A stretch of 64,000 nucleotides of DNA from positions 1-64,000 of IMG/VR virus record IMGVR_UViG_3300033146_001239; one strand, written 5' to 3'. Positions 4,897-10,149 of the stretch are shown piece by piece; positions within the stretch are counted from its first letter, which is position 1; each line of letters starts with the position of its first letter. Source of the stretch: a virus. The position numbers and the translations under genes are program-made. A model generated the notes under the pieces. It did no database searches, was not told where the DNA came from, and was given only the letters and a program-made list of their open reading frames with translations.

Positions 4897-7143
4897 TTAT
4901 TTAACAGTTAACTTGGATATATTACCAGTTTTAATAACCGTTAAAATATTATCTGACCAATCGGCAACTATTTTATTATGGGTTATAATAAAAATTTTAT
5001 CATACATCTCATTCATTTTTTGGAATAATAACTCGATATAATCTAAATTAATATTAGCCACTTTACCAAATACTTCATCAAATGTAATAAAATTAGGTGT
5101 TGCTAAGGTAGTTATTCTACCTAAGACAGCTCTTAATGCAATCGCTGACGCTGTTTTCTCAAAACCACTACCAGACTTTAAAGGTTTAGTAACATCATCA
5201 AGTATTATATTAAATTCAACATCATTCTTATCATTAATATCTAATTCAACATCAAAATTACATGTTTCACTTAACAATCTATGAAGTTCTGAGTTGATAA
5301 TTGGTAATACTGACCTAAGAATCAATTTACTTATACCTTTTTTCCCAACTAATTCAATATACGTTTTATAAACCTTTTCTATTTTATCCTCTTTAGTTAT
5401 TTCTTCTATTAATACCTCTTTTTCGTTAATATCAGTGTTAATATTGGATAATCTATTATTATTTTGATTAATACTATCGTTAATTGAGTTTTGTCTAACC
5501 ATTAATTTAGCAATTTCAGTATCTTCCCAAACAATTTGTGATTCTAACTGTTTATTAGACTCGATAATACTAATATTAAGGTTATATTCCTTCAATTGTG
5601 CACGTTTTTCGGTTATTTTATTACGAAGACCACCCATTTTCACTTCTAACCTATCGCGGGTTAATTCTAACTTATCTCGTTTATTAACAGTTTGTTTATC
5701 TTCACTCATACTTAATAATTTAGTATCAATTTCGTTAATTCTATCTGTTAACTCATTAATTGTTGTTTTGGTAACCTCAATAGTTTTAATATTATTGGAA
5801 ATAGTTTCACTATTGTCAACATCTTTTAATGGTTGACCACAAGTAGGACATATTTCACTATTTTTTAGATTAATATTTTCAGTCTCTAATGTTGCAACTT
5901 CATTTTCCAATTTACCAACATTAATTTTCAACTCATTACGTTCTTTATTTAAATTGAAATCTAATTCTTCATCATAAACAATGTCTTTTATCTTCTCAAT
6001 TTCTACGTTACCAAAATCAACTGATTTCTTAGCTTCAATACCTTCACTAATTAAACCCTCTATTTCGTCACTCAATTTATCTTTATCAATTGATAGAATC
6101 TTATCATCGATATTATGTTTAGATGCCAATAATTTATCCCTCGTTTTATTATGTTTATCGACTTCTGCTTCATTTTCTGATAATTCAATAGCTAACCTTT
6201 CATTAACAATATTAATTGATTCTATTTCACTTTTCAAATCATTAATATCTGTTGTTAATGTGGTAATATCATAATGATTCGCCTTCATTGTTTTAACGAA
6301 CTTATTATACATATCCCTAACAACCCTTTCCTTCTTCTCAATAGGGTCTAAACCGATAAACTTAGTTAATAATTTACCACGAGTTGTTGGTAAACTACTA
6401 ATTAAATCGGTTAGATTATCACTTGTGGCTAAAACCATTAATTCAAAATCTGCCTCAGAACCAATTGTATCTTTAATTTTTTTAGTTGTTTTAATACCAT
6501 CCTCACCTTTCAATTCTTCATATTCACCATCTGGTGTTATAATTGAATAACTAACTGAACCCCTAACAGTATAACCATTACCATTACGCTTTGGTGTCCT
6601 AGTAATTTTACGTTCAATTAAATAATCATCATTTTCAATTCTTATTCCACCCCTAACCACTACTTGATTACTATCACTATATTGGTTAAATATTTCCTCA
6701 TTTTTATCAGTTTTAGATGTTGTTCCAAAAAACAAAAATTTTAATGCATCAATAGAGAATGTCGTATTATGAGAAACAATATCGTTAGAATAAAATTCAT
6801 GTACTTCATCTACTTGTATATCATATAATGTATCCTTAATATCCATTAAATAACATTCTTTGATTGGTGATAATCCGAATCTAGTTTGAATTAATTCTCC
6901 AGGTTTAGCATTAATTAAATTAATAAACTCATCTTTATCGTTTTTTATTTTATGATAATCAGCACCTTCTACATATAAACCACTCTCTAACTCACATCTA
7001 TAAACATCGGCATTTTTTTCAGTTATACCACACCACGTTATATCTTTAAAACCATATTGGGTTTCAACCTTTAACCCTAAATCGCCATATTTTTGATATA
7101 TATCGTTTAATTCCCCTATCGTTAATTTTATTTCTTTTTCCAT
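4897..7143 (-). CDS. gp46-C: C-intein plus C-terminal part of the gp46/SbcC-like recombination ATPase
   Basis: 748 residues. Residues 1-126 are a C-intein: a YHKI block-B-like site at 63-66, then YDIQVDEVHEFYSNDIVSHN ending at Asn126 (blocks F and G). From Thr127 the gp46 extein begins TTFSIDALKFLFFG, the second half of a Walker A loop. Further on come long coiled coils around a CPTCGQPL zinc hook (about residue 440), a degenerate signature GSGFEKTAS, Walker B FITFDEVFG and an H-loop ITHNK. With gp47 it would form the Mre11/Rad50-type nuclease that resects DNA ends for recombination. Alone it lacks a complete ATP-binding loop; it needs trans-splicing with the product of 8166-8747. Stop is 3 nt before nothing recognised; start lies 1 nt after the endonuclease stop. 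Confidence 0.95.
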   Translation of the reverse strand: MEKEIKLTIGELNDIYQKYGDLGLKVETQYGFKDITWCGITEKNADVYRCELESGLYVEGADYHKIKNDKDEFINLINAKPGELIQTRFGLSPIKECYLMDIKDTLYDIQVDEVHEFYSNDIVSHNTTFSIDALKFLFFGTTSKTDKNEEIFNQYSDSNQVVVRGGIRIENDDYLIERKITRTPKRNGNGYTVRGSVSYSIITPDGEYEELKGEDGIKTTKKIKDTIGSEADFELMVLATSDNLTDLISSLPTTRGKLLTKFIGLDPIEKKERVVRDMYNKFVKTMKANHYDITTLTTDINDLKSEIESINIVNERLAIELSENEAEVDKHNKTRDKLLASKHNIDDKILSIDKDKLSDEIEGLISEGIEAKKSVDFGNVEIEKIKDIVYDEELDFNLNKERNELKINVGKLENEVATLETENINLKNSEICPTCGQPLKDVDNSETISNNIKTIEVTKTTINELTDRINEIDTKLLSMSEDKQTVNKRDKLELTRDRLEVKMGGLRNKITEKRAQLKEYNLNISIIESNKQLESQIVWEDTEIAKLMVRQNSINDSINQNNNRLSNINTDINEKEVLIEEITKEDKIEKVYKTYIELVGKKGISKLILRSVLPIINSELHRLLSETCNFDVELDINDKNDVEFNIILDDVTKPLKSGSGFEKTASAIALRAVLGRITTLATPNFITFDEVFGKVANINLDYIELLFQKMNEMYDKIFIITHNKIVADWSDNILTVIKTGNISKLTVK
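6766..7143 (-). other. C-intein coding segment (126 residues)
   Basis: The segment starts at its own ATG and ends with His-Asn before Thr, the canonical intein C-terminus. The usual block B threonine (TxxH) is replaced: the sequence is ADYH. The long C-half (126) and short N-half (29) make this an atypically split intein, comparable in layout to the AceL-TerL intein. It carries no endonuclease domain. Confidence 0.92.
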
Positions 7144-7144
7144 A

Positions 7145-8116
7145 TTATTCTTTTAAAAACTTAATACATTTATTTATAACTTCAACCCGATTATTTTTAT
7201 AATCATATTCATTAACATGTAATACTTGATATCCATCATTAATTATTAATTCATCTCTTTTTTCTTCTCTTTTTTTATTTTCAGATGTTTTTCTATGAAA
7301 ATAAGTTCCATCAAATTCAATTATTTTACCCTTATTCTTAATAAAAAAATCTGGTAAAATGTAACTTTCACCTAAATTTAATCTATATTCATGGTTTTTA
7401 CCACTTAAATCCTTTTTATTATTTAATAAAGTTGCAAAATAAATTTCATTATCTTTAATTAAAGATGGTTCTGTATTTATTATATCCCAAAACAAATCTT
7501 GTGATATTTTACTAAAATTAACCTTTTTATAATTACTTAACCATTTTCTCTGTCGCTCATTAAAAACTTTAATACCTTCTTCTTCACCATATTTATTTAT
7601 ACAAATTTCTTTTGAAAATGTAACTTGCCTTTCGGACCGTTTTACTTTAGCTTCCTCTAATGAGTAACCCTTGTTTATCCAATATTCTAAACTAGTGCTA
7701 CCTTTTTTACCATTAAGACTTCTTAATTCCTCTCTTTCATTCCATATTTTAGTCCCATCTTCATCACCAAATCTAGCAATACAACCACGTAAAGAAACTA
7801 ATTTTTGACCTTCTATTTGTAAGATAGCATCTTCCTCACTATACCCACGTTTAAACCAATATTCAATATTAACTGGTCTTAATGTCTTTATATGTTCTTT
7901 AGCTTCTAATTCACTAAACCCACGTTTAACCCAATATTTGGTATTATATGGGGAACCTTTTACTATTTCTACACCAGATTTTATTAAACGATTTCTGATT
8001 ACACTCTCATCAACATTATATTTTTTAGCTATAACATATATAGCTTCAAATTTATTAACATATGAATCAACCATATCATTAATTTCATCCTCATTAAAAT
8101 TATACCTTTTTCCCAT
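7145..8116 (-). CDS. Vsr-like homing endonuclease between the gp46 halves
   Basis: 323 residues. The N-terminus (about 5-50) looks like a helix-turn-helix (IYVIAKKYNVDESVIRNRL). Three repeats of the form YW-x-(K)RGYSxxEA follow (KYWVKRGFSELEA, EYWFKRGYSEEDA, EYWINKGYSLEEA), a motif known from phage homing endonucleases and probably involved in DNA binding. The C-terminal 80 residues hold a nuclease core: YILPDFFI, IIEFDGTYFH, then a helix and YQVLHVNEYDY, like the Vsr/PD-(D/E)XK fold. It would cut intein-free gp46 genes and so spread the whole fractured locus. It has its own late-type element and sits exactly between the intein halves. Confidence 0.88.
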   Translation of the reverse strand: MGKRYNFNEDEINDMVDSYVNKFEAIYVIAKKYNVDESVIRNRLIKSGVEIVKGSPYNTKYWVKRGFSELEAKEHIKTLRPVNIEYWFKRGYSEEDAILQIEGQKLVSLRGCIARFGDEDGTKIWNEREELRSLNGKKGSTSLEYWINKGYSLEEAKVKRSERQVTFSKEICINKYGEEEGIKVFNERQRKWLSNYKKVNFSKISQDLFWDIINTEPSLIKDNEIYFATLLNNKKDLSGKNHEYRLNLGESYILPDFFIKNKGKIIEFDGTYFHRKTSENKKREEKRDELIINDGYQVLHVNEYDYKNNRVEVINKCIKFLKE

Positions 8117-8125
8117 AATTTAATA

Positions 8126-8140
8126 TTTATTAATAAATAT
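8126..8140 (-). promoter_or_regulatory. ATATTTATTAATAAA element before the endonuclease gene
   Basis: Minus-strand ATATTTATTAATAAA, 24 nt before the endonuclease ATG. It would uncouple expression of the endonuclease and gp46-C from gp46-N. Confidence 0.5.
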
Positions 8141-8165
8141 ACCAGAAAACCAGAAAGGTAAGGGT

Positions 8166-8255
8166 TTATAAAAATTCATCTGGTATAAAACCTAACACAT
8201 CCTTTATTTTATCTAAGTCGACCTTTATAACTACCTCTGTATCAGAACGTAAACA
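8166..8255 (-). other. N-intein coding segment (29 residues)
   Basis: It begins with Cys165 right after the Lys of the Walker A loop and shows the block A pattern CLxxDTEV. It ends in the stop codon. The 29-residue size is close to the 25 residues of the AceL-TerL N-intein and far below the 80-100 of classic split inteins. Confidence 0.9.
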
Positions 8256-8747
8256 CTTACCACCTTGATTTTCTGGAATAGAATTAATTATTGTCATTCC
8301 CTTTAATTTATCAAAATAAATTGGTTCGTTATCACCGAATGATAATAAATTGTTTATCACTAACCATTTTAAATCCCAACGTAGATGTTTAGTTTCAGAT
8401 TCTTCGAATTCTACCGCAGCATTAACTTTATCATCTAAATTAATTATGTGTTTAAAATTAATTTCAACACCTTCACGTTTTAACCATTCCTTAAATAATT
8501 CACGCTGATAATTTACATCCATAATATTATCGATACCACTATCACCGATTTTAATTAACTCACCATCTTTATTCTTCCTATTCGGTCTAAAGATAACGTT
8601 AACTTTATCCTTTGCCACACCATATTTATTAGCAAAATATGTTTTAACTTTACTACGCGCTTCTCTAGTATAATTCTCTGGAGAATCGTCCCAATAAACT
8701 CTAATTTTACCATTCACTGGTATTTTATTATTATTATTATTCACCAT
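8166..8747 (-). CDS. gp46-N: N-terminal part of the gp46 ATPase plus N-intein
   Basis: 193 residues. Residues 1-164 are the N-extein: a 120-residue extension (starting with an Asn run, then GKIRVYWDDSPENY), then the Rad50/SbcC-like start WLVINNLLSFGDNEPIYFDK and the first half of the ATP loop, IPENQGGK. Cys165 begins the N-intein, CLRSDTEVVIKVDLDK, which ends at the stop codon after only 29 residues. Splicing to Thr127 of the partner restores ENQGGK-TTFS and a 786-residue protein. The start overlaps the upstream gene by 11 nt. Without the partner this would look like a truncated pseudogene, but both open frames are clean. Confidence 0.93.
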   Translation of the reverse strand: MVNNNNNKIPVNGKIRVYWDDSPENYTREARSKVKTYFANKYGVAKDKVNVIFRPNRKNKDGELIKIGDSGIDNIMDVNYQRELFKEWLKREGVEINFKHIINLDDKVNAAVEFEESETKHLRWDLKWLVINNLLSFGDNEPIYFDKLKGMTIINSIPENQGGKCLRSDTEVVIKVDLDKIKDVLGFIPDEFL

Positions 8748-9006
8748 ATATATCTATTTCTTTATTTTCGTTTCTATTTATTTTCCCTATATCCCCAACC
8801 TCTTTTGTTTTAACTGGTTCAACAAATTTATTTTGTATTGACTTTTCTTTCGTGATTCCCAAATCAACATTTAAAACTTTTGGTTTATTACCATATTTTT
8901 CAATCATAAAGGCATCTCTCAATAATTTATTAATAAAGCTATCAACCTCTAAATTATTAATCTTACAATAATCTCTAATATCTGATAATAATTTTTCGTT
9001 AATCAC
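8737..9006 (-). CDS. Small hypothetical protein
   Basis: 89 residues. The first 40 (LLSDIRDYCKINNLEVDSFINKLLRDAFMIEKYG) are helical and resemble a short conserved phage motif of the form DYCKxNN...F..K.LR..F.IEKYG; the rest is Lys/Glu-rich and probably disordered. It overlaps both neighbours (11 nt with gp46-N, 8 nt with the gene before it), so it belongs to the gp47-gp46 operon. Function unknown. Confidence 0.75.
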   Translation of the reverse strand: MINEKLLSDIRDYCKINNLEVDSFINKLLRDAFMIEKYGNKPKVLNVDLGITKEKSIQNKFVEPVKTKEVGDIGKINRNENKEIDIYGE

Positions 9007-9290: not shown

Positions 9291-10103
9291 TTACTTATTA
9301 ATTAAAATTTCTTTATTATTATCTAAATCATCTAATGACTTAATTGAAAATTGATAAAAACCATAATTCGTTATTATATCATGTTCCGTATATTTACCAG
9401 TTTCGACATCCCATAATAAAAAACCGTGACCAGTAATTGACTCACCAAAATCTTGTTGAATCAATGACCCACTATATGCAATATTAGCATCACCATTTTT
9501 AAAATTTTGTCGTAAGTGTATATCACCCAATAATACCATATCACAACCATCAAAATAATTAACACCAACCCCGCTATCGGTAAATTCATAACCAATAGAT
9601 GTTTTTGACCCAATTACTGGTGCATGAAATAATCCAACAATTTTTTTATCTGGATGTTGTTCTCGTGTTTCTTCAATATTTGGTCTAAGGTTATCCTCGA
9701 ATATTGAATACACAGCCCACATTATATTCTCATCCTCATAACAAATACTATTTTTAAAATAGTGAATATCATTATTATCGATTAAATTAATAACTGGCGT
9801 TAAAGAATCCATTCTATCTTTATTCTCTTCCAATAAATCATGGTTTCCAGCAATTAAAATTACTGGTGCAATTGAAACTAACTCAGTGAAAAACCAAGTT
9901 AATATATCAGTCAGCTCATTCGAGATAGTTATTTTTTGATGAACAATATCACCTACAACAACAATTCTAACTTCATTAAATTCATAATCCGATGCAATTT
10001 CTTTCGCCTTAATTATGAATTGTTCAATAATTTCACGATATTCTTCGTGTCTTTTATATGTTCTAAAGTGTATATCGCTAATGTGTATTAAAGATTTTAT
10101 CAT
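9291..10103 (-). CDS. gp47/SbcD (Mre11)-like recombination nuclease subunit
   Basis: 270 residues from ATG 10103, chosen because SLIHISDIHF follows at once and a promoter lies upstream. The metallophosphoesterase motifs appear in order: DIHF (about 8-11), VVVGDIVHQ, AGNHDLLEE, GLFHAPV and LLGDIHLRQ. With gp46 it forms the end-resection nuclease that feeds UvsX-driven recombination. T4 gp47 is about 340 residues, so the C-terminal capping part is shorter here. The gene opens the gp47-gp46 operon. Confidence 0.92.
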   Translation of the reverse strand: MIKSLIHISDIHFRTYKRHEEYREIIEQFIIKAKEIASDYEFNEVRIVVVGDIVHQKITISNELTDILTWFFTELVSIAPVILIAGNHDLLEENKDRMDSLTPVINLIDNNDIHYFKNSICYEDENIMWAVYSIFEDNLRPNIEETREQHPDKKIVGLFHAPVIGSKTSIGYEFTDSGVGVNYFDGCDMVLLGDIHLRQNFKNGDANIAYSGSLIQQDFGESITGHGFLLWDVETGKYTEHDIITNYGFYQFSIKSLDDLDNNKEILINK

Positions 10104-10118
10104 AAATATATTTTTTAA

Positions 10119-10149
10119 CAAAAATACTATATTTTTTTAACAATATCAA
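10119..10149 (-). promoter_or_regulatory. Bacteroidetes-type promoter, TTG-N20-TATTTTTG
   Basis: TTG (10147-10149) and TATTTTTG (10119-10126) on the minus strand, 20 nt apart. The -7 box starts 23 nt before the gp47 ATG. Confidence 0.5.

Follow-up and report, generated by a model that had tools for sequence, protein, structure and literature searches.

Fractured genes, as reportedly described by Dassa et al. in 2009, are enzyme genes that a split intein has divided in two, a free-standing and often Vsr-related endonuclease gene lying between the halves. Here we describe a locus with the same three-part order, a phage DNA-metabolism gene as host, a split intein and a Vsr-type endonuclease: the gene for the recombination ATPase gp46 in a 64,000-nucleotide stretch of viral DNA (positions 1 to 64,000 of IMG/VR record IMGVR_UViG_3300033146_001239; hereafter the window). 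The record is a metagenome-derived, 68-kb virus fragment carrying gp47/SbcD-like, primase, sigma factor and baseplate genes, and from this gene content its source is a tailed phage. All window features discussed below lie on the minus strand. We conclude with high confidence that gp46 is fractured here by a mobile, class-1, atypically split intein with an EDxHD/Vsr-type endonuclease gene and its leader, inserted between the codons for the Walker A lysine and threonine, and that the two products would be joined by trans-splicing.

The gene is read as two open reading frames (ORFs), one of 193 residues (8166-8747) and one of 748 residues (4897-7143), which agree with the original prediction down to individual residues and positions. 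The shorter ORF ends in ...IPENQGGK followed by CLRSDTEVVIKVDLDKIKDVLGFIPDEFL. Its first 164 residues (8256..8747) form the N-extein, which runs through the N-terminal region into Walker A and closes with ...PENQGGK; aligned with continuous gp46 relatives, it is 29-57% identical to their N-terminal part, and it stops exactly at their GGK. The longer ORF opens with 126 residues ending in ...HEFYSNDIVSHN, followed by TTFSIDALKFLFFG. Its C-extein (622 residues, 4900..6765) starts with the +1 Thr, carries a CPTCG zinc hook, Walker B and an H-loop, and matches PHROG 77 (SbcC-like) from the residue directly after the intein. Joining K164 to T127, as had been proposed, yields a chain of 786 residues that matches PHROG 77 without a break over residues 68-784 (E = 5e-49), whereas the C-half alone matches more weakly (E = 7.9e-40). 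Walker A, zinc hook and Walker B, which characterize gp46/SbcC/Rad50 proteins, are thereby assembled in one joined chain. Its Walker A is the variant PENQGGKT, and because P-x-N-x-G-G-K-T occupies the place of GxxxxGK[TS] throughout the gp46 family, the earlier wording "P-loop-like" was apt.

Relatives without the insertion define the join exactly. Each of the 14 C-extein relatives first gathered from IMG/VR is one open frame of ~790 codons holding both parts, in which the codon aligned with K164 is followed directly, with a gap of 0 nucleotides, by the codon aligned with T127 (...PxNxGGK|T[TS]...). After wider scans of the gp46 family in IMG/VR, the rows with an empty site numbered 78 (a few of them near-identical copies), and these continuous relatives display precisely the host protein that removal of the intein would restore.

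The N-intein consists of 29 residues (8169..8255); it starts at Cys1, reads CLRSDTEV...LGFIPDEFL and is followed by a stop codon at 8166-8168. In every split form at this site the N-intein is 29 residues long and ends in [LI]GF[LI]P[DEN]E[LF][KL], and Cys1 is present in each N-intein seen there. The C-intein comprises 126 residues (6766..7143), with block B ADYH, block F LYDIQVDEVHEFYSN and a C-terminal SHN. Residues 107-127 of the C-half match the NCBIfam model intein_Cterm (TIGR01443) with 17.2 bits against a curated cut-off of 15.6, and the same model is found at E ≤ 1 in 20 of 23 C-intein homologues. The intein profile hit that had been expected was thus obtained, on the C-half; the N-half alone gave no significant match in profile searches. 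H64, D108, N120, S124, H125 and N126 are invariant across 13 diverse C-inteins, and the ends typical of class-1 inteins (Cys1, a C-terminal His-Asn and the +1 Thr) are present in the window and conserved in relatives. Because TIGR01443 scores above its cut-off and the K164 and T127 codons are exactly adjacent in relatives, a two-part gp46 with an intein is not a chance arrangement. No group I or group II intron was matched by Rfam in 6500-9000, even at E ≤ 1.

The intein is divided into a 29-residue N-part and a 126-residue C-part on separate ORFs, the reverse of the ~100/35 division common among split inteins (PMC12707363), so the original prediction was right to call it atypically split. It had likewise looked to structure prediction for an intein fold. 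The model (AlphaFold2, natural sequences only) represents a continuous (cis) homologue at the same site, L016, rather than the window's own fragments; its predicted local distance difference test score (pLDDT) is 96.1 and its predicted template modelling score (pTM) 0.87. The best match in the PDB is VidaL (E = 5.5e-11, template modelling (TM) score 0.81, 26% identity in the structural alignment), followed by NrdJ-1 and gp41-1, and a sequence search of the PDB also ranked VidaL best (E = 1.8e-7) and matched gp41-1. In this model the cis homologue has the Hint fold, with the counterparts of the 29 N-intein residues forming its first strand and helix. A collection of phage records held only distant C-intein relatives, mostly in terminase, and bacterial genome contigs only 13 distant intein relatives, 38-42% identical at best. 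The intein model was built from cis and C-intein rows because the isolated 29-residue N-inteins were misplaced in the alignment.

Between the halves lies a gene of 323 codons (7145..8116), which the original prediction, sound on the fracture of gp46 by a split intein, had overlooked together with the leader element and the other occupied forms described below. Its product is an EDxHD/Vsr-type homing endonuclease by a DUF559 match above cut-off, a weak Vsr match and a fold match. Residues 1-215 are a helical DNA-binding part and residues 226-323 the nuclease domain, whose predicted structure resembles I-Bth0305I (3r3p; Foldseek probability 1.00, E = 0.12, TM score 0.67 on the target); a PDB sequence search with the endonuclease returned nothing relevant. 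D256, E267 and H274 are invariant in 20 endonuclease homologues, as expected of an EDxHD/Vsr nuclease domain. The two parts have different nearest kin. The first (residues 1-215) shares 60-65% identity with endonucleases of the nearest gp46 units; for the second (residues 226-323), identity is 62% with L022, 57% with the terminase-associated L164 and only 30-40% with the copies in gp46 units. The protein thus looks like a chimera, and a swapped nuclease domain with a retained target-binding part would fit this appearance. The start codon of the C-half lies 1 nucleotide after the endonuclease stop in the window, and in L018, L019 and L020 it falls within the end of the endonuclease gene, a spacing that suggests translational coupling of the two genes.

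At the same codon, GGK|T, gp46 loci occur in several states. The conserved enzyme gene with a split intein and a free-standing endonuclease gene is found in 15 distinct phages, the window and 14 others (L018, L019, L020, L052, L073, L082, L090, L096, L133, L136, L137, L217, L218 and L221). A split intein without the endonuclease is present in L077 and L134, and L060 (4981-6000) combines a split intein with a 141-codon ORF and a short endonuclease relic, VDPSVIIKRLKTN. Continuous inteins occupy the codon in L016 (identical to L017; 5425-8226), where gp46 runs through 933 codons in one frame and the intein has 151 residues, and in L061 (5560-6000; 147 residues). The 141-codon ORF of L060, to which no function is assigned in that locus, resembles by eye an extra ORF after the endonuclease in L217; because of this similar-looking ORF, and with further ORFs following the endonuclease in L082, L090 and L136 as well, the unit may carry passenger genes.

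In a 68-kb record recovered from a metagenome, one could suspect that the interruption stems from faulty assembly or sequencing, or that gp46 is a frameshifted pseudogene. The insert is, however, 1.5 kb of ordered sequence with intact open frames, the same arrangement recurs in 14 more distinct phages that come from other samples, and the parts have low ratios of nonsynonymous to synonymous divergence (dN/dS) in relatives, so we give this explanation practically no credence. Across related units, dN/dS is 0.05-0.35 for the intein parts and the endonuclease and 0.05-0.24 for the C-intein, which shows purifying selection on the parts in these units.

The same data bear on a second alternative, in which gp46 functions as two non-covalently assembled polypeptides and the intein remnants are non-functional tails. 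There is precedent in T4-like phages, where nrdA or gene 43 is split by an endonuclease and the halves assemble without splicing (PMC2988022), and an endonuclease gene likewise separates the gp46 halves. Here, however, the break falls inside Walker A, the catalytic residues are kept in both intein parts of all fractured copies, C-intein dN/dS stays within the range given above, and cis versions remain in frame. No gp46 copy is split at the site without either intein part; such a copy, which would have spoken against the original prediction, was not seen, every split copy having both. With the profile hit, the exact empty sites and the intein fold, this means that everything the original prediction had forecast at the level of sequence was borne out. 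Two-polypeptide assembly is therefore very improbable, and a working gp46 is probably obtainable only by splicing of the two halves.

A mobile unit is indicated by its distribution and by its divergence relative to the host gene. Starred branches of the gp46 tree force at least 13 changes between the empty and the occupied state (short search), and the closest occupied/empty pairs (L052/L054, L082/L058 and L137/L124) share 84-86% of gp46 residues. The C-extein exceeds the intein and the endonuclease in synonymous divergence (dS), with 1.70 vs 0.40-0.70 in L090/L136 and 1.92 vs 0.59-1.13 in L019/L218; for the window and L073, a saturated pair, the relation does not hold. The occupancy changes and the lower unit dS in the measurable pairs thus argue for mobility, and both the patchy distribution and the lower dS are only indirect signs of homing, in which the endonuclease would cut an empty allele and bring about its own copying.

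The endonuclease-bearing inteins do not form one clade (approximately unbiased (AU) test, p = 0.0002), which implies more than one loss, or gain, of the endonuclease. How the split itself arose is a separate question from function. Split forms enclose the cis forms in the best rooted intein tree (support 80/83), which places them beside the endonuclease-less split intein of L077, where a short intergenic deletion would fuse the frames; the cis versions in L016 and L061 are thus possibly re-fused from a split ancestor. The opposite history, an ancestrally continuous intein that was split independently several times, with L016 and L061 primitive rather than re-fused, accords with the general belief that naturally split inteins derive from continuous ones (PMC12707363), and a tree that groups all split forms to the exclusion of the cis forms is not rejected by the AU test (p = 0.084). 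We nevertheless hold it to be rather unlikely, given the nesting of the cis forms, the single split point and 29-residue N-intein common to all split forms, and the separate C-half that the nearest outgroup inteins used (L142 and L145) also have.

New here is a conserved non-coding element of 33 nucleotides (8132..8164), situated between the stop codon of the N-intein and the start of the endonuclease gene, with a promoter-like sequence (CTTACC ... TATATT). Its consensus is CTTTACCTTTYTGRTTANANGGTTATATTTATA, with a mean pairwise identity of 82% compared with 46-53% in the flanks. A pattern scan of 2.9 million viral contigs returned 15 matches, all inside endonuclease-bearing fractured gp46 genes (11 known and 4 new), and the element is absent from the endonuclease-less forms. 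A position weight matrix, which does not score the window's own copy because that is 1 base shorter, gave 37.7-49.6 in the units and 14.4 for the next best site across the loci then gathered. The element is not among the hits of a standard sigma-70 scan, so calling it a promoter is interpretation only. A role as general promoter of the window's phage was rejected, the window holding no other match at 3 mismatches, a search that its own copy escapes by the 1-nucleotide deletion; RNA structure was rejected as well (2 pairs, no covariation).

The complement of the leader resembles the gp46 target, AAYYARAAAGGTAAR vs AAYYAAGGTGGTAAR. A plain column-shuffle test gave this resemblance no significance (182/300), and a composition-weighted test made second gave 6/1000; in 15 of 15 units one leader base and the target covary, but this represents only about two independent events. 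We treat the resemblance as a lead only. Self-regulation is known from I-TevI, whose repression of its own gene works through a target-like element that overlaps the promoter (Edgell et al. 2004, reviewed in PMC3943268). In both cases an element ahead of the gene resembles the target; here the likeness is one of sequence only, and I-TevI belongs to a different nuclease family and to a group I intron rather than a split intein. It is a speculative and unlikely idea that the leader is a promoter combined with an operator, a reversed look-alike of the gp46 target that the endonuclease would bind to regulate itself and the C-half. If so, the homing enzyme would set the timing and amount of the splice-able recombination ATPase.

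Several observations weigh against the fractured-gene reading of the window. Around the WDKD region, its endonuclease is missing a stretch that the gp46-site kin have, although nuclease domains of the L023 type are built similarly, and the leader has a 1-nucleotide deletion relative to the others; given these two losses, the endonuclease could be weakened. The window has no close relative, and its own dN/dS can be measured only at saturated distance. In block B, Ala (ADYH) takes the place of the Thr of the canonical TxxH, but this does not single out a dead copy, because ADxH with an invariant His is common to the whole gp46-site group, cis forms included. Splicing, DNA cleavage and ATPase activity are themselves predictions from sequence.

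Even so, the layout in three parts, the base-exact empty site, the patchy distribution and the intein fold modelled for the cis homologue are shown, as is purifying selection on the parts in related units, and a scheme for the trans-splicing of a fractured gp46 can be outlined. The two halves would be made as separate, inactive proteins, and the short N-intein would dock into the C-intein. Trans-splicing would then remove both intein parts and join ...GGK to TTF..., producing the 786-residue gp46, whose complete ATP-binding loop would allow it to work with gp47. The endonuclease from the middle gene would cut gp46 close to the P-loop codons in co-infecting phages whose allele lacks the unit, which would then be copied in as the cut is repaired. 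Its place of insertion would shield the unit, since a working gene would be recovered only by an exact deletion.

The presumed partner subunit is encoded intact upstream of gp46 by a gp47/SbcD-like nuclease gene (9291..10121; Metallophos, 2.1e-11; PHROG 100, SbcD-like, 1.6e-20). In other loci gp47 is itself interrupted, by a ~125-nucleotide insert with a frame break in L016/L017 (L016 3947-4877) and by a ~1-kb insertion in L002 (3924-5760).

Distant gp46 lineages contain C-halves of the same kind. In these the intein is followed immediately by the PHROG 77 match, which begins at profile position 334 in L026, L029, L035, L142, L147 and L155, as it does in the window, at 337 in L149 and at 356 in L033. 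Their N-halves, where read, break after GK (L026, L029, L030, L033, L035, L042 and L045), and together these starts and breaks mark the gp46 Walker A as a repeated home of such units. Going by the sequence that follows the intein, members of the same C-intein family also stand behind terminase-like and helicase-like P-loops. In the terminase-like loci (L034/L178, L151-L176 and L187-L204), the C-half often has a hydrophobic N-terminal extension (e.g. ...IIYFLIQLIEKYEFR). A ClpA-like ATPase gene in L024 (4135-8060) is apparently fractured after its P-loop (STGVGK|C), with the same endonuclease type and a C-intein-like segment. L141 (3645-6698) is one frame with an SbcD-like start, a C-intein homologue ending ~570 residues in and then an SbcC-like part, possibly an SbcD-SbcC fusion with a cis intein.

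As gp46 is the motor of the phage complex that processes double-strand breaks, machinery expected to help copy the unit in homing, the unit interrupts a protein on which it may depend. One codon position in one gene family is empty, split with the endonuclease, split without it, split with a relic or continuous, with near relatives on both sides; this series makes the origin of split inteins, and the mending of a broken gene by re-fusion, testable. An N-intein of 29 residues is also of use for protein labelling.

Among described systems, gp41-1 and NrdJ-1, the next best structural matches, share the Hint fold and come from fractured genes of phage type, but they are split at the canonical endonuclease site and have a long N-intein, unlike the short one here. 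I-Bth0305I is encoded in a group I intron, whereas the endonuclease gene here lies between split-intein halves. The two enzymes have in common the fold of the EDxHD nuclease domain and a multi-domain DNA-binding part (PMC3943268). In phage MIJ3 the PolB gene is likewise divided into two ORFs by a split intein with an endonuclease between them (PMC6892783); there the N-intein is long, with block B in the N-part, and the nuclease is of the HNH type, compared with gp46, a 29-residue N-intein and an EDxHD/Vsr nuclease here. Split in the same atypical manner are AceL-TerL, GOS-TerL, Cat and VidaL, which combine a short N-intein (25-37 residues in the TerL ones) with a long C-intein (PMC11766414); the host of AceL-TerL and GOS-TerL is terminase rather than gp46, and VidaL is only 26% identical in the structural alignment. 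We found no gp46, Rad50 or SbcC case in the searchable open literature, though one might be among the eight enzyme types of Dassa 2009. The kind, a fractured gene with an atypically split intein, is thus already known, and gp46 as its host gene is apparently new, with an unusually complete evolutionary context.

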